Source of the DNA: Rhodanobacter sp. T12-5
GTDB taxonomy: Bacteria > Pseudomonadota > Gammaproteobacteria > Xanthomonadales > Rhodanobacteraceae
DNA length: 64,000 nucleotides
Direction: 5' to 3'
NCBI RefSeq assembly: GCF_008329435.1
Contig: NZ_NPKN01000005.1
Span: 1-64,000, forward strand
The position numbers and the translations under genes are program-made. How positions within the stretch are numbered: position 1 is the stretch's first letter; each line of letters opens with the position of its first letter. Under the pieces are notes generated by a model. That model was given only the letters and a program-made list of their open reading frames with translations, was not told the origin of the DNA and did no database searches. Positions 1-56,754 of this stretch are shown one piece after another.

Positions 1-2720
1 ACACCGCCCCGGCGGTGACCTCGGTCGGCGTGCCGGCCAATGCCACCTATATCGCCGGCGACAATCTCGATTTCACGGTGAATTTCGGCGAGGCGGTCAC
101 GGTCAACACCGGCGGCGGCACGCCGCGCATCGCGATCACGCTCGATACCGGCGGTACGGTCTATGCTGATTACATCAGCGGTTCCGGCACGAGTGCCCTG
201 ACCTTCCGCTACACCGTCGCCAGCGGCAATCTCGATACCAACGGCATTGCCGTCGGCGCTCTCGGAGGCAACGGCGGCACGCTCAAGGATGCCGCCGGCA
301 ACGATGCCACGCTGACCTTGAACAGCGTCGGCAGTACGGCCGCGGTGCTGGTCGACGCAGTCGTTCCCACGGCAGACATCGTGGTCGCCGAGAACAGTTT
401 GAAGGTGGGCGAAACCTCGCAGGTGACGATCACCTTCAGCGAGGCGGTCAGCGGCTTCAGCAACGCCGACCTGACGGTGGCCAACGGCACGCTGAGTGCG
501 GTCAGCTCCAGCGATGGCGGCGTGACGTGGACCGCAACCTTCACCCCCACGGCGGGCGTCACCGACGCCAGCAACCTGATCACGCTGGACAACACCGGTG
601 TGCAGGATGCCACGGGCAACGCCGGTGTCGGCAGCACCGATTCCAACAACTACGCGATCGATACCTTGCGCCCGACCGCGACCATCGTGGTGGCCGACAC
701 CGCGCTGGCGGCCGGTGAAACCTCCACCGCCACGATCACCTTCAGCGAGGCGGTCAGCGGCCTGACCACGGCCGACCTGACGGTGGCGAATGGCAGCTTG
801 AGCGGCCTGGCCAGCAGCGATAGCGGCATCACCTGGACCGCGACCTTCACGCCGACGGCTGACATCACCGACGCCAGCAACCTGATCACGCTGGACAACA
901 CCGGCGTGCAGGATGCGGCCGGCAACGCCGGCACCGGCAGCACCGATTCCAACAATTACGCGATCGATACCCAGCCTCCCGTGGTCGTTTCCGTGGCGGT
1001 GCCAGCGGACAGCACCTATATCGCCGGCCAGAATCTGGACTTCACGGTCGACTTCAGCGACGTCGTGATTGTCGACACCGGCAGCGGCACGCCGCGGATC
1101 GCGGTGATCCTGGAGAGCGGCGGCACGGCGTATGCGGATTACCTGAGCGGGTCGGGCAGCACGGCGTTGTTGTTCCGCCTCACCGCAAGCAGCGGGCAGA
1201 TGGATGCCGATGGCATCACCCTCGGCAGCAGCATCGACAGTCATGGCGGCAGCATCCGCGACACCGCGGGCAATGCCATTGTGGCCGGTCTTAACGGCGT
1301 GGCGGCCACCACCGGCGTGCGGGTCGACGCGATCGAGCCTGGCGTGGCGCGCGTCGACATGCCGGCCGATGGTCATTACAACGCGGGCGACGTGCTGAGT
1401 TTCAGTGTGACGACCAGCGAGGCCGTGCTGGTCGACAGCGCCGGCGGCACACCGCGGCTGCAGCTGGACATCGGCGGCAGCACGGCGTACGCAGACTACG
1501 TCTCGGGTTCGGGCAGCGACACGCTGGTGTTCCAGTACACAGTCCGGCCGGGCGACAAGGACGCCGATGGCATCGCGTTGACCGGTGCGATCGATCCGCA
1601 CGGTGCGCAACTCCACGATGCGGCGGGCAACCAATTTGCACCGGCGTTGCATGGCATCGCCGACGGCAGCGGCGTGATCGTCGATACCACCGCGCCACAG
1701 GTCATGGCCATCAGCCGCGACGACGGCAGTCCCAACAGCGGCCAGCAGGGTCTGAGCTATACGGTGACTTTCGACGAGAGTGTCGATGGCGTCGACGCCG
1801 CCGACTTCGCCTTGGTCGCCACCGGCAATGCGCACGCCACGATCGGCGCGATCACCCGCATCGACGGGCACAGCTTCACCGTGCAGTTGCAGGACGTGGT
1901 TGGCAGCGGCAGCCTGCAACTGAACCTGGCCGCCGCCGGCAGCGGCATCGCCGACACCGCCGGCAACGCCCTGGTCGCCGGTGCCAACGGCGAGGTTTAC
2001 GTGGTGGGTGGCGTGACGCCGGTGGTGCTGCCGCCACCCACGGTGTTGCCGATGGCATCGGGCATCACGCACGGCAACAGCGTGTCGCTGCTGACTGCGC
2101 TGCAACCCGACGACCTGCCGACGATCTTCTTCGGCGAGGCTGCCCCGACACCGCTCTTCACCTTGCCGATCGAGCGCTTCGGCGGCGTGCTGGACAGCTT
2201 GGCCACGTTGTCGCATGAGTCCATTTCGTCGTTCGGCAACGCGGTGCGCGACGCTTCCGCCTGGCCGCCGTCGACCTGGGTCGCGCCCAATCGTCCGTTC
2301 AGCGTACGCCTGCCGGGTGCGCTGGACGGTCAACATGGCGTATTGCAGGTAAGCCTGGCCGACGGCCGGCCGTTGCCGTCGTGGCTGCACTTCGATCCCG
2401 TTGCGGACACGCTCGATGGCGTGCCGCCGGCCGACTTCAGCGGCACGCTGTCGTTGCAGTTGACCGTGCTCGATGGCCATGGCCAGGTCCGCAACGTGCC
2501 GCTGGAATTGTCCACTACCACCGATCGCGCCCCGAGCAGACCGGCGCATGCCAGCCGCCCGGCGAACAACACCGACAGCAAACCGGTGGCTACCGCGAAA
2601 CCGGCGTTGCAGATTCAGTTCGGCCAGCAACGTCAGCACGGCAACGTCGACCACGCCAGCTTGCTGCACCACCTCGCCGTGGCCCGCCAGCAGCAGGCTT
2701 CCGCCCAGGCACGCCCGTGA
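1..2720 (+). CDS. Large Ig-like repeat surface protein, C-terminal part (5' end outside window)
   Basis: The reading frame is open at base 3 and continues left of the window, so about 906 C-terminal residues are seen. They form tandem beta-sandwich modules of about 100-120 residues that end in AAGN or TAGN motifs and VD(A/T)-x-x-P linkers, typical of bacterial Ig-like adhesin repeats. Two adjacent modules repeat at DNA level with a 306-bp period (compare 561 and 867). After a Pro-rich linker near base 2030 there is one different module, SLADGRPLPSWLHFD onward, resembling a putative-Ig (He_PIG, dystroglycan-like) domain. The tail is Gln/His-rich, with no LPXTG, OmpA or autotransporter barrel. 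Fifty-six bases separate it from the next gene, so it probably shares an operon with the export genes downstream and is their likely substrate (inference). No RTX nonapeptides are visible in this part. Confidence 0.85.
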   Translation, partial: TAPAVTSVGVPANATYIAGDNLDFTVNFGEAVTVNTGGGTPRIAITLDTGGTVYADYISGSGTSALTFRYTVASGNLDTNGIAVGALGGNGGTLKDAAGNDATLTLNSVGSTAAVLVDAVVPTADIVVAENSLKVGETSQVTITFSEAVSGFSNADLTVANGTLSAVSSSDGGVTWTATFTPTAGVTDASNLITLDNTGVQDATGNAGVGSTDSNNYAIDTLRPTATIVVADTALAAGETSTATITFSEAVSGLTTADLTVANGSLSGLASSDSGITWTATFTPTADITDASNLITLDNTGVQDAAGNAGTGSTDSNNYAIDTQPPVVVSVAVPADSTYIAGQNLDFTVDFSDVVIVDTGSGTPRIAVILESGGTAYADYLSGSGSTALLFRLTASSGQMDADGITLGSSIDSHGGSIRDTAGNAIVAGLNGVAATTGVRVDAIEPGVARVDMPADGHYNAGDVLSFSVTTSEAVLVDSAGGTPRLQLDIGGSTAYADYVSGSGSDTLVFQYTVRPGDKDADGIALTGAIDPHGAQLHDAAGNQFAPALHGIADGSGVIVDTTAPQVMAISRDDGSPNSGQQGLSYTVTFDESVDGVDAADFALVATGNAHATIGAITRIDGHSFTVQLQDVVGSGSLQLNLAAAGSGIADTAGNALVAGANGEVYVVGGVTPVVLPPPTVLPMASGITHGNSVSLLTALQPDDLPTIFFGEAAPTPLFTLPIERFGGVLDSLATLSHESISSFGNAVRDASAWPPSTWVAPNRPFSVRLPGALDGQHGVLQVSLADGRPLPSWLHFDPVADTLDGVPPADFSGTLSLQLTVLDGHGQVRNVPLELSTTTDRAPSRPAHASRPANNTDSKPVATAKPALQIQFGQQRQHGNVDHASLLHHLAVARQQQASAQARP

Positions 2721-2776
2721 ATCGCCTGGTCGCAGCATCCCTTTCCACTTTCCATCCAGCTACGGAGAGCAGCGCC

Positions 2777-4291
2777 TTGCACACCACCACCATCCTGATG
2801 CCCAAGAAGCTCCTCGCCGCCACGCTCGCCACCCTGGTGCTCGGCGGCTGCGCCATCCACCCCCGCCCGCTGACGCTGGAGCAGCGCAGCGCCACGCTGC
2901 AGGCCGACCAGCAGGCGATGTTCGCCGAGCAGACGCCGGTGAGCGGGCCGATCACGCTGGACGAGGCGATGGCGCGTGCACTGAAGTACAACCTGGACAA
3001 CCGCGTGAAGATGATGGAGGAGGCGCTGGCCCAGCGGCAGCTCGACCTATCCAACTTCGACCTGTTGCCGAAGCTCACCGCCGCCGCCGGCTACACCTCG
3101 CGCGACAACGTGTTGGCGTCGTCGTCGCAGGACATCGTCACCGGCCAGCAGTCGCTGGTGCCGTCGACTTCCAGCGAGCGTCAGGCCACGCGTGCCGACC
3201 TCGGTTTTTCCTGGAACATCCTCGACTTCGGCGTCAGCTACTACGGTGCGCGGCAGCAGGCCGATCGCGTGCTGGCCACGCAGGAGCGTCGTCGCAAGGT
3301 GGTGCAGCTGCTGATGCAGCAGACCCGGCAGGCCTACTGGCAAGCTGCCGGCGCGCAGAAACTGCAGGCGCAGATCGAACCGTTGCTGGCGCAGGCGCAA
3401 CAGGCGCTGGGCGACTCGCGCGCGATCGAGCAGCAGGGCCTCAAGGATCCGCTGCAGTCCCTCGGCTACCAGCGCGAGCTGCTCGGTCTGGTGCTGCAGC
3501 TGGAAACGATCCGCGACGAGTTGGCGCAGGCCAAGCCGAAGCTGGCCTCGATCATGAACCTGGAGCCGGGCAAGCCCTACCAGTTGGCGCCGCCGGCCAG
3601 TTTCGACACGCCCGAGTTGTCGATCGCGCCGGAAAAGATGGAAGAAGTGGCCCTGCTGCATCGCCCCGAGCTGATCGAAGCCAGCTACAACGAACGCATC
3701 GGCCTGGACGAGACGCACAAGGCGATGGCCAAGCTGTTGCCCGGCGTCGAGCTGAACGTCGGCACGCATTACGACAGCAACGATTTCCTGGTCAACAACG
3801 AGTGGCGCGACGCCGGCATCCAGATCAGCTGGAACCTGCTCAACCTGCTCAATGCCGGGCACATCAAGGCCGCGGCCAAGGCGCAATACGAGCTGGCGCG
3901 CGAGCAGCGCCTCGCGCTGAACATGGCGGTGCTGACCCAGGTGCACGTGGCCTATATCGACTACACCAGCCGCAAGCAGCAGTTCGAACTGACTCGCCAG
4001 CTGAGCGACGTGGAGCAGCGCATCCTCGAGCACACGCGCAACGCGACACAGGCCAACGCGCAAGGCAAACTGGCCGAGATTCGTGCCGCCACCAGCGCGC
4101 TGATGTCCGAGCTGAAGCTGTACCAGAGCTACGCCGCCTACCAGGGCGCGTATGGCCAGATGGTGGCCACGCTCGGCCTCGACCCGGTGCCTGCGGCGGT
4201 TGCCAGCCATGACCTGCCGACGCTGGAGCAGGCCATTCGCGATACCGAAAAACAGTGGGCCGCCCCGGCCACCGGAGATGCCTCGAAGTGA
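2777..4291 (+). CDS. TolC-family outer membrane efflux lipoprotein
   Basis: A TolC-type outer membrane channel of 504 residues. The N-terminus is a lipoprotein signal with lipobox LGGC followed by AIHPRP, and the rest is rich in long amphipathic helices with the two-fold repeat of the family (for example RATRADLGFSWNILDFG and DAGIQISWNLLNLLNAGH). Start choice: a GGAG at 2764-2767 lies 9 bases before TTG 2777, whereas the in-frame ATG at 2798 has no ribosome binding site, so TTG is preferred; both keep the lipobox. Its stop overlaps the GTG of the next gene by 4 bases. It would provide the outer-membrane exit for the putative export system of the next three genes. Confidence 0.88.
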   Translation: MHTTTILMPKKLLAATLATLVLGGCAIHPRPLTLEQRSATLQADQQAMFAEQTPVSGPITLDEAMARALKYNLDNRVKMMEEALAQRQLDLSNFDLLPKLTAAAGYTSRDNVLASSSQDIVTGQQSLVPSTSSERQATRADLGFSWNILDFGVSYYGARQQADRVLATQERRRKVVQLLMQQTRQAYWQAAGAQKLQAQIEPLLAQAQQALGDSRAIEQQGLKDPLQSLGYQRELLGLVLQLETIRDELAQAKPKLASIMNLEPGKPYQLAPPASFDTPELSIAPEKMEEVALLHRPELIEASYNERIGLDETHKAMAKLLPGVELNVGTHYDSNDFLVNNEWRDAGIQISWNLLNLLNAGHIKAAAKAQYELAREQRLALNMAVLTQVHVAYIDYTSRKQQFELTRQLSDVEQRILEHTRNATQANAQGKLAEIRAATSALMSELKLYQSYAAYQGAYGQMVATLGLDPVPAAVASHDLPTLEQAIRDTEKQWAAPATGDASK

Positions 4292-5130
4292 TTGTTTGCC
4301 CTGTCGCTGGAGTCCGTTCGCGGACGATGTCGTTGCCTTGCCCCACCATCGACAGGAGCGTCGCCCGCCCGCAGGTCGCCGGCATGGGCGGGGTCGCACT
4401 GGCGCTGGTGTTGCTGTGTTTCGGCAGCAGCGCGATCGCACAGAATGCCGTCGGTGAGGCGGATACCGCCGGCCGCATCCGCACCCAGCTGGCGGCACAG
4501 AATGACGTGGAGGTTTCCAGTGAGGTGGCGGCCAAGATCGCGCGGCTGCCGTTGAAGGAAGGCGATGCATTCGCCAAGGGCGACCTGCTGGTCGCGTTCG
4601 ACTGCGGCCTGTACCAGGCGCAGCAGCGCAAGGCCGAAGCGACCTCGGCGGCCGCTTCGCGCGAGGCCGAGGTGACCCGCAAGCTGGCCAGCCTGCATTC
4701 GGTCGGTGTGCTGGAAGTGGGCCAGGCCGAGGCACGCGCCAAGGAGGCGGCGGCCGACGCTGCCTACATGCGTACCACTGTCGGCAAGTGCAGCATCCAT
4801 GCGCCGTTCGCCGGCCGCGTGGCCAAGCGCGAGGCCGCGCCGTTCGAATACGTCACCCCCGGCAAGCCGTTGCTGGAGATTCTCGATACCGGCACGCTGG
4901 AGGTGAAGCTGATCGTGCCGTCGCGCTGGCTGGCCACGCTCAAGCCCGGCGCGAGCTTCACCGTGCACGTCGATGATCTCGGCAAGGACTATCCGGCGCA
5001 GGTCGTGCGCCTGGGGGCACGCATCGATCCAATCAGCCAGACGGTGTCGATCAGCGGTCGCATCGAGGGCCGCCATGACGAGTTGCTGCCCGGCATGAGC
5101 GGCTGGGCCAGCTTTCCGAATCACCCATGA
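4288..5130 (+). CDS. HlyD/RND-type periplasmic adaptor protein
   Basis: A periplasmic adaptor (membrane fusion protein) of about 280 residues. An N-terminal hydrophobic stretch (GVALALVLLCFGSSAIA, then Q) reads as a signal peptide. A split lipoyl domain follows: VSSEVAAKIARLPLKEGDAF forms the first half and HAPFAGRVAKREAAPFEYV the second, around a short coiled-coil hairpin. A beta-barrel segment ends the protein. Start: GTG 4288 overlaps the upstream TGA and has GGAG at 4274-4277; ATG 4327 and ATG 4384 are alternatives, so the exact N-terminus is uncertain. The stop overlaps the next start as ATGA. No ABC transporter or RND pump lies beside it, so its inner-membrane partner is probably one of the next two gene products (inference). 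Confidence 0.82.
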   Translation: MIVCPVAGVRSRTMSLPCPTIDRSVARPQVAGMGGVALALVLLCFGSSAIAQNAVGEADTAGRIRTQLAAQNDVEVSSEVAAKIARLPLKEGDAFAKGDLLVAFDCGLYQAQQRKAEATSAAASREAEVTRKLASLHSVGVLEVGQAEARAKEAAADAAYMRTTVGKCSIHAPFAGRVAKREAAPFEYVTPGKPLLEILDTGTLEVKLIVPSRWLATLKPGASFTVHVDDLGKDYPAQVVRLGARIDPISQTVSISGRIEGRHDELLPGMSGWASFPNHP

Positions 5131-6458
5131 GTACGGTGAATGCGTCGGTGCAGGGGCTGATCGGCCTGCTGCAACTAGGCCAGCGCGTGCGCGCCGCCGC
5201 CAGCGTGCAGGAGCTGGGCTTCGTCGCCGTCAACGAGACCCGCGCGGTGTTCGCCTATCGACAGGCGGCGCTGTGGCTGGACGGTGATGCCAGCCACATC
5301 GCCGCACTGTCCGGCGTGCCGCAGGTCGACCCGGAAGCGCCGTACGTGCAATGGCTGGTGCGGCTGTTCCGCAAGATCGCGCCGGTACCCGCGCCGCGGG
5401 TGATCGATGTCGGGGCGCTGCCGGCGTTGCTCGTCGAGGAATGGGGCAGCTGGTTGCCGATGCACGCGCTGGCGTTGCCGCTGCCGCATGCCGGTGGCGG
5501 CCCGCGCGGCGTGCTGCTGCTGGCGCGCGACCAACCCTGGACCGACGAGGAACTGGCGCTGGCCGGCGAACTGGGTGCGTTGCTCGGCCACGGCCTGTTC
5601 GCGCTGCGCCCGCGCGAACGGCTGTGGCGTCAACTGCTGACCCGCTTGCGCACACGCCAATGGTGGTGGCGGCTGGGCCTGGCGCTGCTGCTGATCTGCC
5701 TGATCCCGGTGCGGCTGTCCGCGCTGGCACCGGCCGAAGTCACCCCGGTCGATCCGTTCGTGGTGCGCGCGCCGCTGGATGGCGTCATCGACAGCCTCAA
5801 GGTTACGCCGAACCAGCCAGTCCAGGCCGGAGCCTTGCTGTTCAACCTGGATGCGACCACGTTGCGCAGCCGCTACGCCAGCGCGCGCAAGGCCTATGAA
5901 ACCGCGCAAGAGGAATACCGGCAGAGCGCGCAGCAGGCGGTCACCGACGACAAGAGCAAGCTGCAGATGGCCGAGCGCCTGGGCGACCTTCGGCAGAAGC
6001 AGGTCGACATGACTTACACCGCCGATCAGCTCGCGCGCGTGCAGGTAAAGGCCGAACGCGCCGGCGTGGCGGTGTTCGCCGACGTCAACGACTGGACCGG
6101 CAAGGCCGTGGTGGTCGGCGAGAAGGTGCTGGTGCTGGCCGATCCGGGCAAGGTGGAACTGACCGGCTACCTGCCGGTGGGCGACCAGATCGCGCTGAAA
6201 GCCGGCGCCGACGTGACCTTCTATCCGCGCGCTTCGCCGTTCACCGCGTACCACGCCACGGTCGACAGCGTGGCGTACAAGGCGGCACCGACCGACGAGA
6301 ACATCCTTGCCTATCGGGTCAAGGCCCACTTCAGTGCGGGCGACGACCTGCCACGACTGGGCCTGATGGGAACGGCGCGACTGTACGCCGGGCGCGTGCC
6401 GCTGGTCTATTACGTGCTGCGCCGTCCGCTGGCCACGCTGCGCCAGTGGCTGGGCTGA
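5127..6458 (+). CDS. GAF-like domain / transmembrane / HlyD-type adaptor fusion
   Basis: A 443-residue protein with three visible parts. Residues 1 to about 165 form a soluble alpha/beta region with GAF-like character (ALWLDGDASHIAALSG near residue 48, LALPLPHAGGGPRGVLLLARD near 115). Residues 181-202 are one membrane helix following a cluster of Arg and Trp. From residue 210 there is an HlyD-type arm: lipoyl half VVRAPLDGVIDSLKVTPNQPV, a coiled coil of about 90 residues, then a beta-barrel. The topology is therefore a cytoplasmic GAF-like sensor, a single membrane pass and a periplasmic adaptor arm. It overlaps its upstream neighbour by 4 bases and precedes the M50 gene by 4 bases. A cytoplasmic ligand could control secretion through this protein, but no ligand can be read from the sequence. 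Confidence 0.8.
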   Translation: MSTVNASVQGLIGLLQLGQRVRAAASVQELGFVAVNETRAVFAYRQAALWLDGDASHIAALSGVPQVDPEAPYVQWLVRLFRKIAPVPAPRVIDVGALPALLVEEWGSWLPMHALALPLPHAGGGPRGVLLLARDQPWTDEELALAGELGALLGHGLFALRPRERLWRQLLTRLRTRQWWWRLGLALLLICLIPVRLSALAPAEVTPVDPFVVRAPLDGVIDSLKVTPNQPVQAGALLFNLDATTLRSRYASARKAYETAQEEYRQSAQQAVTDDKSKLQMAERLGDLRQKQVDMTYTADQLARVQVKAERAGVAVFADVNDWTGKAVVVGEKVLVLADPGKVELTGYLPVGDQIALKAGADVTFYPRASPFTAYHATVDSVAYKAAPTDENILAYRVKAHFSAGDDLPRLGLMGTARLYAGRVPLVYYVLRRPLATLRQWLG

Positions 6459-6462
6459 GCGC

Positions 6463-8604
6463 GTGCAGACCGACCCATCGACATCGCCGGCGCCAGCGCA
6501 AACGCTGCCGCCGCTGCGCCAGGAGCTGACCCTCAACCCGGCGCCGGCGGCACCGGACGGCTCGCCGACGTGGACCCTGCACGATCCCGCCGCGAACCGC
6601 TTCTACGAACTGGGCTGGCCCGCGTTCGAGATCCTTTCGCGCTGGTCACTGGGCACGGTCGACGCCGTGGTCGCGGCGGTGAATGCGCAAACCACGCTCA
6701 GCGTCGATGCCGAGGACGTGGTCGCGCTGGCGCAGTTCCTCGGCGGCCATCACTTGTTCCTGGCGGCGACGCCGCAGGACAGTGTGCTGCTGGCGCAGGC
6801 AGCCGCACGGCACAAGTTGTCGATACCGCGGTGGCTGCTGAAGAACTACCTGTTCCTGCGCGTGCCGCTGGTGCAACCGATGCCGTTCTTGCGCCGGGTG
6901 TATCCATGGATCAGCTTCGTCTACCGGCCAGGCTTCTGGTGGCTGACCCTCGGCGTGGTCGTGCTTGGCTTGTATCTGGTGTCGCGTCAGTGGGACAGCT
7001 TCGTGCACACGTTCCACGCCTATACCACGTGGCAGGGCCTGCTCGGGTTGGGCATCGCGCTGAGTTTCGCCAAGGTGCTGCACGAACTCGGCCATGCGTT
7101 CACCGCATATCGCCACGGTTGTCGCGTGCCGACCATGGGCATCGCGCTGCTGGTGATGTGGCCGGTGCTGTTCACCGACACCAACGAGGCGTGGAAACTG
7201 AAATCGCGCCGCGCCCGCCTGCAGATCGGCGGCGCCGGCGTGCTGGCCGAGTTGATGCTGGCCGCTTACGCCACGCTGCTGTGGAACTTCCTGCCCGATG
7301 GCCCGCTGCGTGCCGGCGTGTTCATGCTGGCCACCAGTACATGGCTGGTGACGCTGGCGATCAACGTCAGTCCGTTCACCCGTTTCGACGGTTACTACCT
7401 GCTGTCGGACTGGGTCAACGTGCCGAACCTGCACGAGCGCACGTTCGCGCTGGGCCGCTGGTGGCTGCGCGAGCGGCTGTTCGGCTTCGGCGACGCGCCA
7501 CCGGAAGCGTTGCCGCCGAAGCACCACCGATTCCTGGTGGTCTTCGCGATGGTCACCTGGCTGTACCGTTTCGTGCTGTTCCTGTCGATCGCGCTGCTGG
7601 TGTTCAACTTCTTCTTTCGCGCACTGGGCATCGTGCTGATGTGCGTGGAGATCGGCTGGTTTCTCGCGCTGCCGATCGCGCGCGAGATACAGGTGTGGTG
7701 GCGGCGTCGCGCCGAACTGCGCTGGAACCGGCATACCGTGCGCACGACGATCGTGGCCGGCTTGCTTGCGCTGGTGCTGCTGCTGCCGTGGCAACGCGAG
7801 GTGCATGCGCCGGCGGTGCTCGGCCAGACACAGGCGCAGGTCGTGTATGCGCCGCGCGCGGCGCAGGTGGTCACGCTGGCGGTGCGCGAAGGCCAGGCGA
7901 TACAGGCTGGCGCCGTGCTGGCGCAGCTCGCCTCGCCGGATCTCGACTACCAGCTGGCCAGCGCACGCCAGCAGGCCGCGCAATACCAGTGGCAGGTCGA
8001 GCAGCAGCCGTTCGACGACGAACTGCGCGCGCTCGGCCCGGCCCTGCGCAAGCGCTGGGACACGGCGCGCCAGACGGTGGCCGGCTATGAAGCGGAACAG
8101 GCGCGGCTGACCTTGCGCGCACCCTTTGCCGGCCGCGTGGTCGACCTCAATCCGACCTTGCGCGCGGGCGAATGGATCAAGGGCGGCGAGGCCTTGCTGG
8201 GCGTGGTCGGCAGCGACGGCGGCGTCAAGGGCGACGCGTTTGTCGACGAGGCGGCCTTGTCGCGACTGGCGACGGGACAGCCGGTCAGTTTCCTTGCGGA
8301 GCTGCCGGAGTTGCCGATCGTGCACTGTCGTGTCAGCGGGATCGACCGACTCAATCTCGGCGTACTCGACGAACCCTACGTGGCCAGCGTCTATGGCGGC
8401 CAGGTGGCCAGCGTGCACCGTCCCGACGGCACCCTGACGCCGCTGGAATCCACCTTCCGGGTGCGCTTCGGCGACTGCGACCGGCACGAGGCATTGTCGC
8501 GCGAGGCGCCCGGCAGCGCGGCGATCGCCGGTGAATCGCGCAGCCTGCTTGGTCGTTTCGCGCGCTGGCTGGCCGCGTTGCTGCGACGCGACGTCAGCTT
8601 CTGA
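6463..8604 (+). CDS. M50 (site-2-type) metalloprotease with RRE-like N-terminus and HlyD-type C-terminal arm
   Basis: A 713-residue integral membrane protein of the putative peptide zinc metalloprotease class. Residues about 20-105 (WTLHDPAANRFYELGWPAFEIL) resemble a PqqD-like winged-helix, the fold of peptide-recognition (RRE) domains. Several membrane helices carry the M50 active site HELGH at residues 207-211 and the second metal motif SPFTRFDGYY (Asp 309). From about residue 450 a periplasmic HlyD-like part follows: VVTLAVREGQAIQAG, a short coiled coil and LRAPFAGRVVDLNPTL. GTG at 6463 starts 4 bases after the upstream stop. A protease fused to an adaptor arm, next to a TolC-type channel and a giant Ig-repeat protein, suggests cleavage-coupled export or surface release (inference). 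Confidence 0.85.
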   Translation: MQTDPSTSPAPAQTLPPLRQELTLNPAPAAPDGSPTWTLHDPAANRFYELGWPAFEILSRWSLGTVDAVVAAVNAQTTLSVDAEDVVALAQFLGGHHLFLAATPQDSVLLAQAAARHKLSIPRWLLKNYLFLRVPLVQPMPFLRRVYPWISFVYRPGFWWLTLGVVVLGLYLVSRQWDSFVHTFHAYTTWQGLLGLGIALSFAKVLHELGHAFTAYRHGCRVPTMGIALLVMWPVLFTDTNEAWKLKSRRARLQIGGAGVLAELMLAAYATLLWNFLPDGPLRAGVFMLATSTWLVTLAINVSPFTRFDGYYLLSDWVNVPNLHERTFALGRWWLRERLFGFGDAPPEALPPKHHRFLVVFAMVTWLYRFVLFLSIALLVFNFFFRALGIVLMCVEIGWFLALPIAREIQVWWRRRAELRWNRHTVRTTIVAGLLALVLLLPWQREVHAPAVLGQTQAQVVYAPRAAQVVTLAVREGQAIQAGAVLAQLASPDLDYQLASARQQAAQYQWQVEQQPFDDELRALGPALRKRWDTARQTVAGYEAEQARLTLRAPFAGRVVDLNPTLRAGEWIKGGEALLGVVGSDGGVKGDAFVDEAALSRLATGQPVSFLAELPELPIVHCRVSGIDRLNLGVLDEPYVASVYGGQVASVHRPDGTLTPLESTFRVRFGDCDRHEALSREAPGSAAIAGESRSLLGRFARWLAALLRRDVSF

Positions 8605-43816: not shown

Positions 43817-45055
43817 ATGTCGCGTTTTTGGAAGATCGCGTTGATCGTCGTTGCCGTGATCGTGGTGGCCGGGGTTGGCTTTCGCCTGCTCCACAAGCCG
43901 GCAGGCGCCGCCTCGACGCAGGCAGCTGCGAAGGGCAAGGACGGCAAGGACGGCAAGGATGCCACGCCGCCGGTGCCGGTGACCGTGGTTCCGGTGGCCA
44001 AGCAGAATGTGCCGGTCTATCTGACCGCGCTGGGCACGGTGCAGGCGCTCAACACGGTGACCGTGAACCCGCAGGTGCCGGGCCAGTTGCTCAGCCTGGA
44101 CTTCATCGAAGGCCAGCCGGTCAAGAAGGGCCAGGTGCTGGCGCAGATCGATCCGCGCACCTACCAGGCCGCATACGACCAGGCCGTGGCGAAACAGCGC
44201 CAGGATCAGGCGCTGCTGGCCACCGCGAAGAGCAACCTGACGCGCAGCCAGGATCTGGCGGCCAAGGGCTACATCTCCAAGCAGGATCTGGACACGCTGC
44301 GCAATACCGCCGCCCAGTACCAGGCCGCGGTGGCCGCCGACGCGGCCAGCATTCGCGACAGCCAGGTGCAGCTGAACTACACCAGGGTCATCTCCCCGAT
44401 CGACGGGCTGGCCGGCATCCGCGGGGTCGATCCGGGCAACGTGATCACCACCTCCACCGCGATCGTCACGCTGACCCAGCTGCATCCGATCAACGTGATG
44501 TTCACCCTGCCGGAGCAGAACCTCGACCTCGTGCGCGCCGCCGCGCAGGGTGGCGCCGGACTGGAAGTGGCCGCGCTGGACAAGACCGATGCGCATCCGA
44601 TCGCGGCCGGCGGCGTGCTCAAGGTGATCGACAACCAGATCGACGCCAGCACCGGCACGTTCCGGCTGAAGTCCGAATTTCCGAATACCAAGAACGAATT
44701 GTGGCCCGGCCAGTTCGTCAACGTGCGGCTGCTGGTGAACACGGTGTCCGGTGGGCTGGTGATTCCGGCGCAGGCGGTGCAGCGCGGGCCGGACGGCGAC
44801 TACGTCTATCAGGTGCAGGCCGACAGCACGGTCAAGATGCAGCCGGTGATGGTCGCCGGCGAGGTGGGCGACAGCCAGGTGATGATCGGCAGCGGTCTCA
44901 AGGTCGGCGACCGCGTGGTCACCGAAGGCCAGTTCCGGCTGAAGCCGGGCAGCAAGGTCAATGCGCTCAAGCCGGGCGAAGTGCCGGCGGCACCGACCGC
45001 GGCCGAACTGGACAAGGCCAAGAAGAACACCAAGGGTGGCGGTCGCCGTCATTGA
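43817..45055 (+). CDS. mdtA: MdtA-type RND periplasmic adaptor
   Basis: A 412-residue membrane-fusion protein. After one N-terminal hydrophobic helix comes a flexible linker with Gly-Lys-Asp triplets (GKDGKDGKD), then lipoyl half VPVYLTALGTVQALNTVTV, a coiled-coil hairpin, second half YTRVISPIDGLAGIRGVDPG, and the beta-barrel with INVMFTLPEQNLDLV and DNQIDASTGTFRLK, all close to MdtA. It ends in a basic tail. With the two tandem RND pumps downstream it forms an MdtABC-like tripartite system; the outer-membrane channel is not encoded next to it. Confidence 0.92.
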   Translation: MSRFWKIALIVVAVIVVAGVGFRLLHKPAGAASTQAAAKGKDGKDGKDATPPVPVTVVPVAKQNVPVYLTALGTVQALNTVTVNPQVPGQLLSLDFIEGQPVKKGQVLAQIDPRTYQAAYDQAVAKQRQDQALLATAKSNLTRSQDLAAKGYISKQDLDTLRNTAAQYQAAVAADAASIRDSQVQLNYTRVISPIDGLAGIRGVDPGNVITTSTAIVTLTQLHPINVMFTLPEQNLDLVRAAAQGGAGLEVAALDKTDAHPIAAGGVLKVIDNQIDASTGTFRLKSEFPNTKNELWPGQFVNVRLLVNTVSGGLVIPAQAVQRGPDGDYVYQVQADSTVKMQPVMVAGEVGDSQVMIGSGLKVGDRVVTEGQFRLKPGSKVNALKPGEVPAAPTAAELDKAKKNTKGGGRRH

Positions 45056-45165
45056 TGACGCGCCGTGGCGCCGACTGGCGCCGCGGCATCGTGATCGCGA
45101 TGCAACCGGCCGTGCGATCCGGCCATGACCGCGACTGAAACCGCACCTGCACGTTACGGATAGCC

Positions 45166-48100
45166 ATGGGATTCTCGACCCTCTTCATTCGCCGACCGAT
45201 CGCCACCTCGCTGCTGATGGTGGCGGTGCTGCTGCTCGGCATCCTCGGTTACCGCGCACTGCCGGTGTCGGCCCTGCCGGAGATCGAGGCGCCCAGCCTG
45301 GTGGTCAGCACGCAGTATCCCGGGGCCAGCGCCAGCACCATGGCGTCGCTGATCACCACGCCGCTGGAGCGCAACCTGGGGCAGATCTCCGGGCTCACCA
45401 TGATGAGCTCGGACTCCTCCGCCGGGCTGTCCACGATCATCCTGCAGTTCTCGATGGACCGCGATATCGACATCGCCGCGCAGGACGTGCAGGCCGCGAT
45501 CAACCAGGCCAAGGGCACGCTGCCGGGCAACCTGCCGTATCCGCCGGTGTACAACCGGGTCAATCCGGCCGATGCGCCGATCCTCACCCTGATGCTCACC
45601 TCCGACAGCCGCCAGCTGCGCGAGGTGAACGACCTGGCCGATTCGATCCTGGCGCAGAAACTGTCGCAGGTGCAGGGCGTCGGGCTGGTCTCGATCGCCG
45701 GCAACGTGCGCCCGGCCGTGCGCGTGCAGGTCAATCCGGCGCAGCTGTCCAACCTCGGCCTGACCATGGAGGACGTGCGCAGCGCGCTGACCCAAGCCAA
45801 CGTCAATGCGCCCAAGGGCACGCTCAACGGCAAGACGCAGAGCTACTCGATCGGCACCAACGACCAACTGTCCACCGCGGCGGAATACAAGGACAGCATC
45901 ATCAGCTACAAGGACACCGCGCCGGTGCGTCTTTCCGACGTGGCCAAGGTGGTCGACGGCGTCGAGAACGACCAGCTCGCCGCGTGGGCGAACGGCAAGC
46001 CGGCGGTGCTGCTGGACGTGCGCCGCCAGCCTGGCGCGAACATCGTGCAGACGGTCGAGCAGATCCGCCAGGTGCTGCCGGAACTGCGCAGCGCGCTGCC
46101 GGCCGACGTGCACCTGGACGTATTCGCCGACCGCACGGTGACCATCCGCGCGTCGGTGCACGATGTGGAGTTCACCCTGCTGCTGACCATCTTCCTGGTG
46201 GTAGGCGTGATCTTCGTGTTCCTGCGCCGGCTGTGGGCGACGGTGATCCCGTCGGTCGCGGTGCCGCTGTCGCTGCTGGGCACGTTCGGGGTGATGTCGT
46301 TCACCGGCATGTCGCTGGACAACCTGTCGCTGATGGCGCTCACCGTGGCCACCGGTTTCGTGGTCGACGATGCGATCGTGATGATCGAGAACATCGTGCG
46401 CTACATCGAGCAGGGCAAGAGCGGCAAGGAGGCGGCCGAGATCGGCGCGAAGGAGATCGGCTTCACCGTGCTGTCGCTGACCGTCTCGCTGGTCGCGGTG
46501 TTCCTGCCCCTGCTGCTGATGCCCGGCGTCACTGGCCGGTTGTTCCACGAGTTCGCCTGGGTGCTGACCATCGCGGTGACCATCTCGATGCTGGTCTCGC
46601 TGACGCTGACCCCGATGATGTGCGCCTACCTGCTCAAGCCCGACGCGCTGCCGCCGGGCGACGACACCCACGAGCGACAGGCCGCCGCCGGCAAGCGCGA
46701 CCTGTGGACACGCACGGTCGACCTCTACGCCAACACGCTGGACTGGGTGCTCGATCACCGCCGGCTCACCATGATGGTGGCGGCCGCGGCGGTAGTGCTG
46801 ACCGTGTTCCTGTACGTCGTGATCCCCAAGGGCCTGTTGCCCGAGCAGGACACCGGCCTGATCACCGGCGTGGTGCAGGCCGACGACAATGTCGCGTTCC
46901 CGCAGATGGAACTGCGCACCAAGGCGGTCGCCGAGGCTCTGCGCAAGGACCCCGCCGTGGCCGGCGTGGCGGCCTTCATCGGCGCCGGCACGATCAACCC
47001 CACGCTCAACCAGGGCCAGCTCAGCATCGTCCTGAAGGAACGCGGCGACCGCGACAGCCTCGACGCATTGCTGCCGCGGCTGCAGCATGCGGTGGCGAAC
47101 ATTCCCGGCGTCGCGCTGTACCTGAAGCCGGTGCAGGACGTGACCCTGGACAGCCGCGTCGCCGCCACCGAATACCAGTATTCGCTGTCCGACGTGAACT
47201 CGGCCGAGCTGGCCGGCTACGCGAACCAGATGACCCAGGCGCTGCGCCAGCGGCCGGAGCTGGCCGATGTCGGCAACAACCTGGCCAACAACGGCAACGC
47301 GCTGAAACTCGACATCGATCGCGAAAAGGCCAGCCGCCTCGGCGTGCCCGTGCAGAGCATCGACGACACCCTGTACGACGCGTTCGGCCAGCGCCAGATC
47401 TCGACCATCTTCACCCAGCTCAACCAGTATCGCGTGGTGCTGGAAGTGGCGCCCGAGTTCCGCAACAGCGACGACCTGATGAACAAGCTGACCGTGCGCG
47501 GCAACGGCAACGGTGCGCTCACCGGCAGCAACGCGACCAGCTTCGGCCAGTTGAAGTCGAGCAATTCGGCGACCCCGTCGGGCATCGGCAATGCCGGCAA
47601 CGTCGGCTTCCAGATCGGGGGTGGCGGCACCATCCCGTTGTCCTCGCTGGTCACCGCGAAGGTTACCAGCGCGCCGCTGGTGGTCAGCCACCAGCAGCAG
47701 TTGCCGGCGGTAACGCTGGCGTTCAACGTGGCGCCGGGCTACTCGCTGTCCGATGCGGTGGCGGCGATCCACGAGGTGGAAGCGCAGCTGAAATTCCCGC
47801 CGCAGGTACGCGGCGAGTTCGTCGGCAAGGCCGCCGAGTTCGCCTCTTCGCTGGGCGACGAAGTGCTTCTGCTGCTGGCCGCGATCGTGGTGATCTACAT
47901 CGTGCTGGGCGTGCTGTACGAGAGCTACATCCATCCGCTGACGATCATCTCCACGCTGCCGCCGGCGGGCGTCGGTGCGCTGCTGGCGCTGATCCTGTGC
48001 GGCATGAGCCTGTCGGTGGACGGCATCGTCGGCATCGTGCTGTTGATAGGCATCGTCAAGAAAAACGCGATCATGATGATCGACTTCGCGATCGAGGCCC

Positions 48101-48402
48101 GGCGCACCGGCATGAATGCGCGCGACGCGATCCGCCGCGCCTGCCTGCTGCGTTTCCGCCCGATCATGATGACCACCGCCGCGGCCATGCTCGGCGCGCT
48201 GCCGCTGGCGCTGGGCAACGGCATCGGCGCCGAGCTGCGCCGGCCGCTGGGCGTGTCGATCGTCGGCGGCCTGCTGCTGTCGCAGCTGGTCACGCTGTAC
48301 ACCACGCCGGTGATCTACCTGTACATGGAGCGCTTCTCCGACTGGCTCGCGGTGCGCCGCGAGCAGCGCGCGTTGAAGCTTGCGAGCCAGGGCCTCGCGT
48401 AA
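45166..48402 (+). CDS. mdtB: RND efflux pump, MdtB-type subunit
   Basis: A 1078-residue inner-membrane RND transporter with twelve membrane helices and two periplasmic loops. It starts STLFIRRPIATSLLMVAVLL and carries the proton-relay acids in GFVVDDAIVMIEN. Family signature motifs LLIGIVKKNAIMMIDFAIEARR and RFRPIMMTTAAAMLGALPLAL are present. It follows mdtA by 110 bases. In MdtABC systems two different RND proteins form one trimer; the order adaptor-pump-pump matches. A 55-base stretch, 48035-48089, is identical to the second pump gene. Confidence 0.92.
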   Translation: MGFSTLFIRRPIATSLLMVAVLLLGILGYRALPVSALPEIEAPSLVVSTQYPGASASTMASLITTPLERNLGQISGLTMMSSDSSAGLSTIILQFSMDRDIDIAAQDVQAAINQAKGTLPGNLPYPPVYNRVNPADAPILTLMLTSDSRQLREVNDLADSILAQKLSQVQGVGLVSIAGNVRPAVRVQVNPAQLSNLGLTMEDVRSALTQANVNAPKGTLNGKTQSYSIGTNDQLSTAAEYKDSIISYKDTAPVRLSDVAKVVDGVENDQLAAWANGKPAVLLDVRRQPGANIVQTVEQIRQVLPELRSALPADVHLDVFADRTVTIRASVHDVEFTLLLTIFLVVGVIFVFLRRLWATVIPSVAVPLSLLGTFGVMSFTGMSLDNLSLMALTVATGFVVDDAIVMIENIVRYIEQGKSGKEAAEIGAKEIGFTVLSLTVSLVAVFLPLLLMPGVTGRLFHEFAWVLTIAVTISMLVSLTLTPMMCAYLLKPDALPPGDDTHERQAAAGKRDLWTRTVDLYANTLDWVLDHRRLTMMVAAAAVVLTVFLYVVIPKGLLPEQDTGLITGVVQADDNVAFPQMELRTKAVAEALRKDPAVAGVAAFIGAGTINPTLNQGQLSIVLKERGDRDSLDALLPRLQHAVANIPGVALYLKPVQDVTLDSRVAATEYQYSLSDVNSAELAGYANQMTQALRQRPELADVGNNLANNGNALKLDIDREKASRLGVPVQSIDDTLYDAFGQRQISTIFTQLNQYRVVLEVAPEFRNSDDLMNKLTVRGNGNGALTGSNATSFGQLKSSNSATPSGIGNAGNVGFQIGGGGTIPLSSLVTAKVTSAPLVVSHQQQLPAVTLAFNVAPGYSLSDAVAAIHEVEAQLKFPPQVRGEFVGKAAEFASSLGDEVLLLLAAIVVIYIVLGVLYESYIHPLTIISTLPPAGVGALLALILCGMSLSVDGIVGIVLLIGIVKKNAIMMIDFAIEARRTGMNARDAIRRACLLRFRPIMMTTAAAMLGALPLALGNGIGAELRRPLGVSIVGGLLLSQLVTLYTTPVIYLYMERFSDWLAVRREQRALKLASQGLA

Positions 48403-48442
48403 TGCATGCCGGTCTGACTGCACTGCGCGTGCCGGGTTGATG

Positions 48443-48513
48443 GTGGGAGCGACTTCAGTCGCGATGCCGTTCGCCACGCAATGCAAAAGCATCGAGGCTG
48501 AAGCCGCTCCCAC
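48443..48513. repeat. REP-type palindrome between the two RND pump genes
   Basis: Arms 48443-48466 (GTGGGAGCGACTTCAGTCGC then GATG) and 48490-48513 (CATCGAGGCTGAAGCC then GCTCCCAC) form an imperfect inverted repeat around a 23-base loop. It sits in the 217-base gap between mdtB and mdtC and may set the relative amounts of the two subunits by stabilising the upstream message. Confidence 0.8.
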
Positions 48514-48619
48514 AGGGATATGCAGCGGATCAACCTTTCCGCAGTTCGTGCGTTGATGTCGGGATGAAGTCTTCACGCGCCGTCTGTCACCGCCCTCCAT
48601 CTCCGGCCACGCTGCTTCC

Positions 48620-51600
48620 ATGAATATCTCCGGGACCTTCATCCGCCGTCCGATCGGCACGTCGTTGCTCGCGATCGGGTTGTTCGTGGTCGGCATGATC
48701 AGCTACCTGCTGCTCGGCGTGGCGGCATTGCCGAACATGCAGTTTCCGGCGATCTTCGTGCAGGCCAGCCAGGCCGGCGCGGACGCCAGCACGATGGCTT
48801 CGACCGTAGCCTCGCCACTGGAGCGGCACCTGGGCCAGGTACCCGGCATCGAGACCATGCGCTCGTCCAGTTCCGAAGGCAGCGCCTTCGTCTTCATGAT
48901 GTTCCAGAGCGGCACCGACCTGGATGCCGCCGCGCGCGACGTGCAGGCGGCGATCAACGCCGCGGCGCCGGACCTGCCCAGCGGACTCAACGGCGCGCCG
49001 AGTTATGAGAAGGCCAACCCGAACGACGACCCGATCATCGCGCTGGCGCTGACCTCGGACACCCAGTCCGCGGCCGATCTGTACAACGTCTCCGACACCT
49101 TGCTGGCGCAGCGCCTGCGCCAGTTGCCGGGGGTGTCGTCGGTGGAGATCGCCGGTGCCGCCACGCCGGCGATCCGGGTCGACGTGAACCTGCGCGCATT
49201 GAACGCGATGGGCCTGTCGCCGGACCAGTTGCGCAATGCCCTGAGTGCCGCCAACGTGACCTCGCCTGAGGGCTTCCTGTCCGACGGCAAGACCACCATG
49301 GCGATCAGCGCCACCACCCAGCTGCACAGCGCGGACGATTTCGCCAGGCTGGTGATCGCCAGCCACGACGGCACGCCGGTGCGGCTGTCCGACGTGGCCC
49401 ATGTCTACGCCGGTCAGCAGGATGCGTACCAGGCGGCCTGGTTCCACGGCAAACCGGCCGTGTTGATGTACGTCTACAAGAAGGCCGACGCCAACGTCAT
49501 CGCCACCGTCGACCTGGTCAAGGATCAGCTCCCGCTGCTGCGCGAATACCTGCAACCGGGCACCGCGCTGACGCCGTTCTTCGACGGCACACCGACCATC
49601 CGCGCCTCGCTGCACGAGGTGCAGGCCACCTTGCTGATTTCGCTGGCGATGGTGATCCTGACGATGGCGCTGTTCCTGCGCCGGCTGGCACCGACCCTGA
49701 TCGCCGCCGTGGCCGTGCCGCTGTCGCTGGCCGGCGCATTCACGATGATGTACATCCTCGGCTACACGCTCAACAACCTCACCCTGCTGGCGCTGGTGAT
49801 CGCGATCGGGTTCGTGGTCGACGATGCAATCGTGGTGATCGAAAACATCATCCGCCACATCGACGGCGGCATGACGCGGATGCAGGCCACCCTGGCCGGC
49901 GCCCGCGAGATCGGTTTCACCATCGTCTCGATCACCGCCTCGCTGGTCGCCGTGTTCATTCCGTTGCTGTTTGCCGGCGGCGTCACCGGCATGTTCATGC
50001 ATGAGTTTGCGGTGACCCTGGTGGCGGCCATCGTGGTCTCGGCAACGGTTTCGCTGACGCTCACGCCGGCGCTGTGCGGACATTTCCTCAGCGGCCATCG
50101 CGAGCCGGCCGCCAGCGCGAAGCCGCCATCCAGACTCGGCATGGCGCTGGACCGCTTCCATGCCGGCATGTTGCGCGTCTACACACGCGCGCTGAACTTC
50201 TCGCTGCGCCACGCGCTGCTTTTTTCGCTGACGCCGCTGGCGTTGATCGTCGCCACCTTCTTCCTGCTCGGCGCGGTCAAGACCGGCCTGTTCCCACAGC
50301 AGGACACCGGCCTGATCTGGGGCCGCGCCAGCTCCAGCGCGACCGTGTCGTTTGCCGAAAGCAAGCAGCGCCTGCAACGGATGACCGCGATGCTGATGGC
50401 CGATCCCGACGTGGCCACCATCGGCTCGCGCCTGGGCAGCAGCCGGCACGGCACCAGCGGTTCGTTCAACATCGACCTGAAAACACGCGCCGAGGGACGC
50501 AAGGACGACACCTTCACCGTGCTGGCGCGACTGAGCGCGAAAGCCGCCAATTATCCCGACCTCAATCTGCGCCTGCGCCCGGTGCAGGACCTGCCCAGCG
50601 GCGGCGGTGGCGGCACCAGCCAGGGAGCGCAATACGAGGTTTCGCTGCAGGGCAATGACCTGGCGAGCCTGCAGGAATGGCTGCCGAAACTGCAGGCCCA
50701 ATTGAAGAAAAATCCCAAACTGAGGGACGTCGGCACCGACGTCGACGAAGCCGGCCTGCGCCAGAACATCGTGATCGACCGCGACAAGGCCGCGCGCCTG
50801 GGTGTCTCGATCGGCGCCATCGACGGTGCGCTGTACGACGCCTTCGGCCAGCGCCAGGTCTCCACCATCTACTCGGACATCAACCAGTACAAGGTGGTGG
50901 TCAACGCCTTGCCCGAGCAGACCGCCACGCCCGATGCGCTCAACCGCATCTACGTGCGCTCCAGCAACGGTGCGATGGTGCCGATCACCGCGTTCACCCG
51001 GCAAGTGCCGGGACTGGCGCCGTCGCAGATCACCCACGAAAACCAGTACACCACGATGGACCTCAGCTTCAACCTCGCGCCCGGCGTGAGCATGGGCGAG
51101 GCGATGGCGATCATCCAGGCCACCGTGCAGGGCATGCGCATGCCCGGTGACATCAAGGTGCGGATGGGCAGCGACTTCCGCCGCTTCCAGCAGTCGCAGA
51201 GCGGCATGCTGTGGCTGGTGCTGGCGGCGGTGCTGACGGTCTACATCGTGCTCGGCATGCTTTACGAAAACCTGATCCATCCGATCACCATCCTGTCCAC
51301 CCTGCCGGCCGCCGGCGCCGGCGCGCTGCTGGCGCTGTGGCTGACCGGCACCGAGCTGTCGGTAGTGGCGCAGATCGCGCTCGTGCTGTTGATAGGCATC
51401 GTCAAGAAAAACGCGATCATGATGATCGACTTCGCCCTCGTCGCCGAACGCGAACACGGCAAGAGCCCGCTCGAAGCCGCCCGCGAAGCCTGCATCGTCC
51501 GCTTCCGCCCGATCATGATGACGACGATGGTGGCGATTCTCGCCGCCCTGCCGATAGCGATCGGCCTCGGCGAAGGCAGCGAACTGCGCCGCCCCCTCGG

Positions 51601-51766
51601 CATCGCCCTGATCGGCGGCCTGCTGATCTCGCAAAGCCTCACCCTGCTCAGCACCCCGGCGCTCTACGTGATCTTCTCGTGCCTTGCGGCGCGGCGGAAA
51701 AGCTGGAGCGCGCGACGAAGTGAGCGCAAGGCGGGGCGGCGCAGGGGGCAGTTGGCGAATATTTGA
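48620..51766 (+). CDS. mdtC: RND efflux pump, MdtC-type subunit
   Basis: A 1048-residue RND transporter beginning NISGTFIRRPIGTSLLAIGL. The proton-relay acids are in GFVVDDAIVVIEN, and LLIGIVKKNAIMMIDFALVAER and RFRPIMMTTMVAILAALPIAIG are conserved. It resembles MdtC and pairs with the upstream MdtB-type pump. A Gly-rich loop (SGGGGGTSQ) lies in the second periplasmic domain. The C-terminus has an unusually basic tail of about 20 residues after the last helix. No clear Shine-Dalgarno precedes ATG 48620. Confidence 0.92.
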   Translation: MNISGTFIRRPIGTSLLAIGLFVVGMISYLLLGVAALPNMQFPAIFVQASQAGADASTMASTVASPLERHLGQVPGIETMRSSSSEGSAFVFMMFQSGTDLDAAARDVQAAINAAAPDLPSGLNGAPSYEKANPNDDPIIALALTSDTQSAADLYNVSDTLLAQRLRQLPGVSSVEIAGAATPAIRVDVNLRALNAMGLSPDQLRNALSAANVTSPEGFLSDGKTTMAISATTQLHSADDFARLVIASHDGTPVRLSDVAHVYAGQQDAYQAAWFHGKPAVLMYVYKKADANVIATVDLVKDQLPLLREYLQPGTALTPFFDGTPTIRASLHEVQATLLISLAMVILTMALFLRRLAPTLIAAVAVPLSLAGAFTMMYILGYTLNNLTLLALVIAIGFVVDDAIVVIENIIRHIDGGMTRMQATLAGAREIGFTIVSITASLVAVFIPLLFAGGVTGMFMHEFAVTLVAAIVVSATVSLTLTPALCGHFLSGHREPAASAKPPSRLGMALDRFHAGMLRVYTRALNFSLRHALLFSLTPLALIVATFFLLGAVKTGLFPQQDTGLIWGRASSSATVSFAESKQRLQRMTAMLMADPDVATIGSRLGSSRHGTSGSFNIDLKTRAEGRKDDTFTVLARLSAKAANYPDLNLRLRPVQDLPSGGGGGTSQGAQYEVSLQGNDLASLQEWLPKLQAQLKKNPKLRDVGTDVDEAGLRQNIVIDRDKAARLGVSIGAIDGALYDAFGQRQVSTIYSDINQYKVVVNALPEQTATPDALNRIYVRSSNGAMVPITAFTRQVPGLAPSQITHENQYTTMDLSFNLAPGVSMGEAMAIIQATVQGMRMPGDIKVRMGSDFRRFQQSQSGMLWLVLAAVLTVYIVLGMLYENLIHPITILSTLPAAGAGALLALWLTGTELSVVAQIALVLLIGIVKKNAIMMIDFALVAEREHGKSPLEAAREACIVRFRPIMMTTMVAILAALPIAIGLGEGSELRRPLGIALIGGLLISQSLTLLSTPALYVIFSCLAARRKSWSARRSERKAGRRRGQLANI

Positions 51767-56523: not shown

Positions 56524-56754
56524 GGCACGGACCTGGCAGGATCGGAGGGTGCCCAGGCGCGCGGCTCGCTGACGTCCGCGTTCCCCGATGGTGATCCACC
56601 CGAAGCGCCAGTAGCGCGAACGGCGCGAGTATGCCACGGCCGCCTGGCCGGTCGCTGCCGTCGCGGCGCGGAAGTCTTCAGGCGCCGTCGGTTCGGAAAT
56701 CTCCGGTTCGGGGAAGCTCTGCGACAATGGTCGTTTTGAAGTGGAGCAAGGCGA

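Follow-up and report, generated by a model that had tools for sequence, protein, structure and literature searches.

The route by which bacteria release proteins thousands of residues long is often unclear, and the question is raised by a five-gene run in Rhodanobacter sp. T12-5. The window analyzed here is a stretch of 64,000 nucleotides, the first bases of contig C15 (NZ_NPKN01000005.1) from base 1 onward. At its start, the end of a giant repeat protein gene is followed by genes for an outer-membrane channel, two adaptor-type proteins, and a membrane protease fused to an adaptor arm, with intergenic gaps of less than 80 bases and one overlapping gene pair. We propose that this cassette is probably an envelope-spanning machine dedicated to exporting and maturing giant proteins that carry an N-terminal LEPR tag. 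The first-pass annotation had described the run as repeat protein, TolC lipoprotein, HlyD, GAF-HlyD, and M50-HlyD, and we recovered all five genes in place on the plus strand:

3-2720, plus strand: C-terminal part (905 codons) of a giant Ig-repeat protein, truncated on the 5' side by the contig end; Big_12, 261 bits
2798-4291, plus strand: TolC-family outer-membrane channel, a lipoprotein; OEP (PF02321), 5.7e-35; lipobox LVLGGC (LGGC) read in the sequence
4327-5130, plus strand: HlyD-type periplasmic adaptor; HlyD_3, 6.2e-18; RND_mfp, 1.2e-34; single N-terminal hydrophobic stretch
5127-6458, plus strand: GAF-HlyD, with a GAF-like part (residues 33-154), one transmembrane-like stretch (180-206), and an HlyD part
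6463-8604, plus strand: M50-HlyD, with an RRE/PqqD-fold domain, an M50 (S2P-type) membrane protease, and an HlyD arm

The genes from 8641 onward (trehalase, methyltransferase) lie on the opposite strand, so the cassette ends at 8604. An HlyD-type adaptor and a TolC-type channel are both present, and no ABC or RND genes were found among the window cassette genes. In GAF-HlyD, the HlyD domains were clear, and the GAF domain scored 19.6 bits against a cut-off of 22.4.

The left border of the window is the end of the contig, and the start of C15 shares an exact overlap of 127 bases with the end of contig C14. At the C14 end, we identified an open frame of 1,869 codons, with AAGGAGA ahead of it, that starts with MAWFKRNPSKLPATRKPLVPARRPLAMALEPRVMFDGAMAV and encodes the tag LEPRVMFDGA, then DUF4347 (PF14252, 7.1e-47), and then repeats. 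Because Big_12 matches in the Rhodanobacter genome were limited to the ends of C14 and C15 (5 matches), this frame and the window repeat gene are very probably one gene split by an assembly gap. The window giant scored 12.4 bits against the LEPR-XLL model (NF012209), below its cut-off of 17, and was found at 3.8e-11 by a model of the MFDGA form (A4), being itself among the 21 training rows of A4. Directly behind the tag, DUF4347 (residues about 99-257 of the C14 giant half; region L015, C14:325000-338860) is perhaps a self-cutting cysteine protease domain, with its His kept in 92% and its Cys in 97% of 40 copies and a weak match to Peptidase_C80 (0.003, under cut-off) in 2 of 5 sequences. The PDB sequence search with DUF4347 gave designed TIM barrels as top rows, as repeated weak matches, and one chain named DUF4347 at E 0.016. 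A sulfotransferase gene (L015:7257-8210) lies immediately upstream of the giant gene, and its close relatives (451-495 bits) adjoin the giant in 7 of 120 fetched loci (L180, L185, L187, L189, L190, L192, and L193), belonging to five Pseudomonas and two genomes grouping with them. L180 is a type A locus of Pseudomonas thivervalensis DSM 13194.

The candidate reader of the tag is M50-HlyD (Peptidase_M50, 7.2e-8), in which we mapped the following features:

6502-6768, plus strand: RRE (PqqD-like) domain, residues 14-102
7081-7095, plus strand: HELGH zinc-binding motif, residues 207-211
7387-7389, plus strand: D309, third metal-ligand candidate in NVSPFTRFDGYY, invariant in 21 sequences
7786-8544, plus strand: periplasmic HlyD arm, residues 442-694

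Residues H207, E208, H211, and D309, forming the HExxH and downstream D of M50/site-2 proteases, were invariant in 21 of 21 sequences, the alignment comprising the window protein and 20 sequences chosen from 30 profile-found loci without selection on the motif. The whole-protein fold search was swamped by HlyD adaptors, and the N-terminal domain was therefore folded alone. It was modelled as an RRE/PqqD fold of three strands followed by three helices (predicted models), and the best matches of the RRE model in the structural search were leader-peptide binders. A Pfam scan of this domain in proteins of the window type (type A, defined below) returned nothing informative, and the M50-HlyD and GAF-HlyD profiles, run against PDB sequences, matched mainly HlyD parts and one short M50 stretch, with no whole-protein match. 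By these models the domain is RRE-type, and reading of the tag, its putative function, is well motivated. The top named M50 families were those maturing ribosomally synthesized and post-translationally modified peptides (RiPPs), daptide HExxH with 147.9 bits and YydH/LiaK with 25.2 bits, both below their own cut-offs. Together, RRE, M50, and N-terminal tag suggest by analogy the leader-removal logic of RiPPs, applied to giants and coupled to a TolC conduit.

We searched for the machine and the tag in 397 genomes of the phylum (Pseudomonadota) and in 123 Nitrospirota genomes. The RRE and M50 profile (A1) matched 92 of the 397 genomes, 83 of them strongly (E < 1e-70, a cut set after viewing the list). 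The NCBI LEPR-XLL model (E 0.01) matched 48 genomes, 47 within the 83, and the A4 model, built on 21 N-termini, matched 69, 66 within the 83. Tagged genomes numbered 84, of which 80 had a strong M50-HlyD, and the tag was present in 80 of the 83 strong M50-HlyD genomes (Fisher 7.9e-75, kinship ignored); counted against all 92 A1 matches, the fractions were 80/84 and 80/92. The 4 tagged genomes without M50-HlyD had weak tag matches (E 0.0027 to 0.0077), with about 8 tag matches expected by chance when 397 genomes are searched twice at E 0.01. The A4 training set consisted of giants beside M50-HlyD genes, with at least two (G000; G250, locus L174) from tested genomes, and the LEPR-XLL model is independent. 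Three genomes had a strong M50-HlyD and no tag match: in G059, a DUF4347 giant with the variant LERRIAFDAA adjoins the cassette; in G004, the locus is interrupted by a contig end; and in G057, no giant was found in the stretches around two cassettes. In Nitrospirota, strong M50-HlyD was identified in 20 of 123 genomes and the tag in exactly the same 20; G445 had a weak M50 match only. In G499, three tagged frames go with a single M50-HlyD, which is what reading of the tag in trans would predict. These distributions argue strongly for a machine-substrate link, and the export genes do not regularly occur without a large repeat protein, a pattern that the first-pass annotation had named as speaking against its proposal; one of the three exceptions itself carries the variant tag.

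A second cassette was identified in the same genome on contig C17, encoding a giant, a 450-codon frame, TolC, GAF-HlyD (617 residues), M50-HlyD (713 residues), and a SecA-like protein (662 residues). Its substrate candidate is the following:

C17:80.6-117.8 kb: giant, a 12,386-codon open frame with tandem-95 and cadherin-like repeats

This giant carries the full LEPR-XLL tag (38.7 bits; ...FEALEPRVLLSGD). The 450-codon frame (L007:5946-7298), between the giant and TolC, had no NCBIfam or Pfam match. The M50-HlyD proteins of the window and C17 share 27% identity, and the GAF-HlyD profile aligned with that of the sister GAF-HlyD family over 424 columns (E 1.3e-33). A SecA-like gene beside the window cassette was considered and rejected, the SecA_DEAD matches of the whole genome lying on C17, on C18 (housekeeping SecA), and, weakly, at C8.

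The cassettes fall into two sister types, type A, as in the window, with its own TolC and HlyD and no SecA-like gene, and type B, with a SecA-like gene. The tag takes the form LEPRxMFDGA for the window cassette and LEPRxLLSAD in the sister type. An M50-HlyD frame was present in 17 of 20 further type A regions, all scoring far higher against the window protein and none with a SecA-like gene, and all 20 further type B regions scored higher against the C17 protein and held a SecA-like gene, 18 of the 20 having been selected via a nearby SecA-like match. In a tree of 60 rows, the 17 SecA-like rows formed one side of a 100/100 branch, and none of the stretches underlying the 43 type A rows contained a SecA-like gene. 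These 60 rows remained from 69 candidates (27 of the 80 loci described below, 40 fetched regions, and two Rhodanobacter genes) after rows with no M50 frame, a low score, or no motif match were left out, and own-gene labels were set by hand. Short SecA-like proteins (rows aligning past residue 600, E 1e-110) were identified in 28 of the 397 genomes, 28 of 28 with a strong M50-HlyD and 27 of 28 with the LEPR-XLL tag. Among 27 type A genomes from the 80 loci, 22 had a long housekeeping-type SecA (20 only that type, 2 also a SecA-like protein) and 5 had no SecA match at 1e-60; with a SecA-like protein in 2 of the 27, type A needs none in the genome. Marinobacterium sediminicola, type A at L174, is a species with such a protein. 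The label "ATPase-less", which the first-pass annotation had given to the system, does not hold as a hallmark of the family, since all 17 type B rows of the tree came with a SecA-like ATPase. In a type B locus of genome G373 (L227:10661-12481), the SecA-like protein is divergent, scoring 45 bits against SecA_DEAD and lacking the Walker and related motifs that were looked for, and is a possible ATPase-dead member.

To describe the neighborhoods across species, the best 80 of 389 relatives were scanned with flanks of up to 10 kb, using the patterns HE[LF]GH and R[FY]DGY, which partly build in active-site conservation (strict regex counts in the 80, 75 and 78). The loci were mostly from Proteobacteria, with some from desulfobacteria, Geobacteraceae, and Nitrospirota. 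GAF-HlyD adjoined M50-HlyD in 74 of the 80 loci; in the 54 loci whose upstream flank reached 7.5 kb or more, HlyD was adjoining in 43, TolC in 38, and all three in 35. With giant repeat-type frames recognized by their length and composition, one was present in 48 of these 54 long-flank loci when either strand was counted and in 46 on the strand of the cassette. Its place differs in several Nitrospira loci, where it comes after the M50 gene, and in several Pseudomonas loci, where it lies a few kb downstream. The tag was identified on 26 giants and DUF4347 in 21 of the 80 loci, with most N-termini lying past the 10-kb flank. No SecA-like gene occurred in the flanks of any of the 80 loci.

The gene set, the tag, their near-exact co-occurrence, the modelled RRE fold, the conserved active-site residues, and the A/B split were computed here, and from them we infer how binding, cleavage, route, sensing, and energy supply may work. 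The cytoplasmic RRE of M50-HlyD would bind the LEPR tag, as RREs bind RiPP leader peptides, and the tagged N-terminus would cross the inner membrane where the membrane portion of M50-HlyD sits. The HlyD arms of the three adaptors and the TolC lipoprotein would provide the route outward, and the GAF domain of GAF-HlyD could serve in cytoplasmic sensing and adjust the machine. Maturation would follow from clipping of the tag at the M50 active site, a step suggested by the conservation of that site. In type B, the dedicated SecA-like ATPase would push the substrate; in type A, no dedicated ATPase is encoded alongside, and housekeeping SecA is the best guess. These cassettes may form a secretion class of their own, in which a RiPP-like leader is read and removed by an RRE-protease-adaptor fusion and one branch is driven by a SecA-like protein and the other has no ATPase of its own, a proposal to which we give slightly less than an even chance.

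The cassette could instead belong to a type I secretion system with its ABC subunit encoded elsewhere, in which a C-terminal signal exports the giant and M50-HlyD and GAF-HlyD are accessory adaptors. TolC and HlyD would fit such a system, as would an ABC pattern a few kb away in a small number of loci (L146, for example) and a C-terminal motif common to type A giants, which in the window reads as follows:

2595-2621, plus strand: C-terminal motif AKPALQIQF of the giant, 41 residues from its end

The pattern [GAS][KR]xx[LFV]xxQ[LFVMI], with the third spacer residue optional, was found in 34 of 51 type A giants versus 4 of 698 interior stretches (shuffled mean, 0.94 of 51) and was derived from the same 51 giants on which it was counted; it starts 22 to 54 residues ahead of the stop. 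A hidden Markov model of the motif, at 5 bits or more, matched 7 of 18 further type A C-termini versus 0 of 370 type A interior stretches, a test from which one frame (L199, minus strand) was excluded by hand and in which the two sets may overlap in species. The motif may represent a second export or retention signal. In type B, the same model matched none of 17 C-termini and 1 of 292 interior stretches, and a SecA-like ATPase takes the place of an ABC subunit. A crude ABC pattern was identified in 13 of the 80 loci, but never between cassette genes, unlinked ABC genes being outside this search. The closest instances are those of L138, on the opposite strand at 0.2 kb downstream, and of L146 (L146:8680-10392), a same-strand frame of 571 codons at 1.3 kb downstream; in five Pseudomonas loci the pattern lies about 9 kb upstream. 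Another ABC-pattern frame downstream of a type A cassette is L178:12787-14586 (600 codons). The first-pass annotation had seen an ABC or RND partner just left of the window as a possible objection; in the 13.9 kb at the C14 end (8.2 kb ahead of the giant), no frame of at least 90 codons had the ABC pattern, and the three frames scanned with Pfam there were a sulfotransferase, an EamA transporter, and a fatty-acid hydroxylase. An RND gene was present in 1 of the 80 loci (L152, about 7 kb downstream of M50), MFS pumps not being part of the search. From the 80 loci and the C14 end scan, an ABC or RND partner within the cassette was rejected, and the earlier view of a dedicated machine for the giant without such a partner in the cassette stands. 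With the N-terminal tag following the machine almost one to one, we regard export by a type I system as unlikely.

It is likewise improbable that the giants are exported by the ordinary Sec pathway, with the cassette acting purely as a periplasmic maturation or release device. The conserved M50 active site and the housekeeping-type SecA of 22 of 27 type A genomes would agree with such a device. However, the window giant shows no hydrophobic signal over its N-terminal 150 residues (highest 19-residue mean, 1.01), a periplasmic HlyD arm would place the RRE in the cytoplasm, and the sister type encodes its own SecA-like ATPase. The gating by cleavage that the first-pass annotation had suggested is of this kind, and its wording, cleavage instead of ATP-driven export, is unsupported, cleavage being read solely from the conserved active site.

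That the genes form an efflux or peptide-export cassette, with the giant gene simply as a neighbor, is highly improbable. The distribution largely contradicts it, with a common tag, co-occurrence in 80 of 83 and in 20 of 20 genomes, and a giant-type frame in 48 of 54 loci, even though the HlyD and TolC parts are similar to efflux adaptors and channels and the M50 part to RiPP proteases; a role in small-molecule efflux was rejected on the same distribution. Elsewhere in the window, 35 kb from the cassette, lies an ordinary RND efflux operon, in which the RND pair (45166-51766) is accompanied by its own adaptor, and a riboswitch was also identified:

43817-51766: RND efflux operon, adaptor and two AcrB-family pumps
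56544-56625, minus strand: ZTP riboswitch, 59.9 bits

The first-pass observation is confirmed, and the finding exceeds what the window alone could show, the N-terminal LEPR tag, the RRE domain, and the SecA-linked relative reported in 2015 having been outside the view of that annotation. Three orphans are joined here: a secretion module predicted in 2015 without a substrate, the LEPR-XLL/MFDGA tag, for which no function was found in the literature searched, and the M50-HlyD proteins annotated as "putative peptide zinc metalloproteases". If the proposed machine is real, the RRE, familiar from small peptide natural products, enters protein secretion, and LEPR-XLL and DUF4347 giants and the orphan SecA2-HlyD-M50 module gain one common function.

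Among known systems, type I secretion consists of HlyB-HlyD-TolC, with LapBCE serving giant adhesins. The window cassette shares with it the HlyD and TolC parts, a giant repeat substrate, and, in many type A giants, a C-terminal motif, but it differs in the absence of an ABC subunit alongside, in the N-terminal tag, and in the protease-adaptor fusion. As in LEPR-XLL proteins (NF012209), an N-terminal LEPR motif marks the giants, and the C17 giant is a full match, whereas the window giant carries the sub-cut-off MFDGA variant. In the passages on LEPR-XLL and DUF4347 available from two papers, no link to an exporter is made (PMC10868602, PMC12322963).

Kamneva, Poudel, and Ward described in 2015 loci from several phyla in which secondary SecA_DEAD proteins are encoded with HlyD, M50, and GAF-HlyD, and proposed SecA as the ATPase and M50 as the pore, with a broader role "completely unknown"; the available parts of that paper do not name a substrate, the LEPR tag, or the RRE (PMC4452313). 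GAF-HlyD and M50-HlyD are encoded together without an ABC transporter in that module, as described there, and in our cassettes, and the C17 cassette is of this kind, whereas the window cassette lacks a SecA-like gene and brings its own TolC along with a third HlyD (PMC4452313). The SecA-less type appears new, as do the tag link and the RRE reader, in the literature searched, which did not cover preprints and most subscription papers. The SecA-linked relative, type B without a substrate, was already reported in 2015 (PMC4452313), and no other paper that turned up in this literature has a clear bearing on the module. Another secretion system has been described as composite and as serving a special class of substrates; by this description it resembles our cassette in these two traits and differs in its substrates, which are lipoproteins (PMC7943197).

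The cassette shares with RiPP maturation an M50 protease (daptide HExxH, NF041824; YydH/LiaK, NF058609), an RRE fold as in PqqD and TbiB1, and a short N-terminal recognition stretch. A further RRE is that of CteB. Unlike in RiPP maturation, the substrates here have thousands of residues, and the M50 protease is fused to an HlyD arm and tied to TolC.

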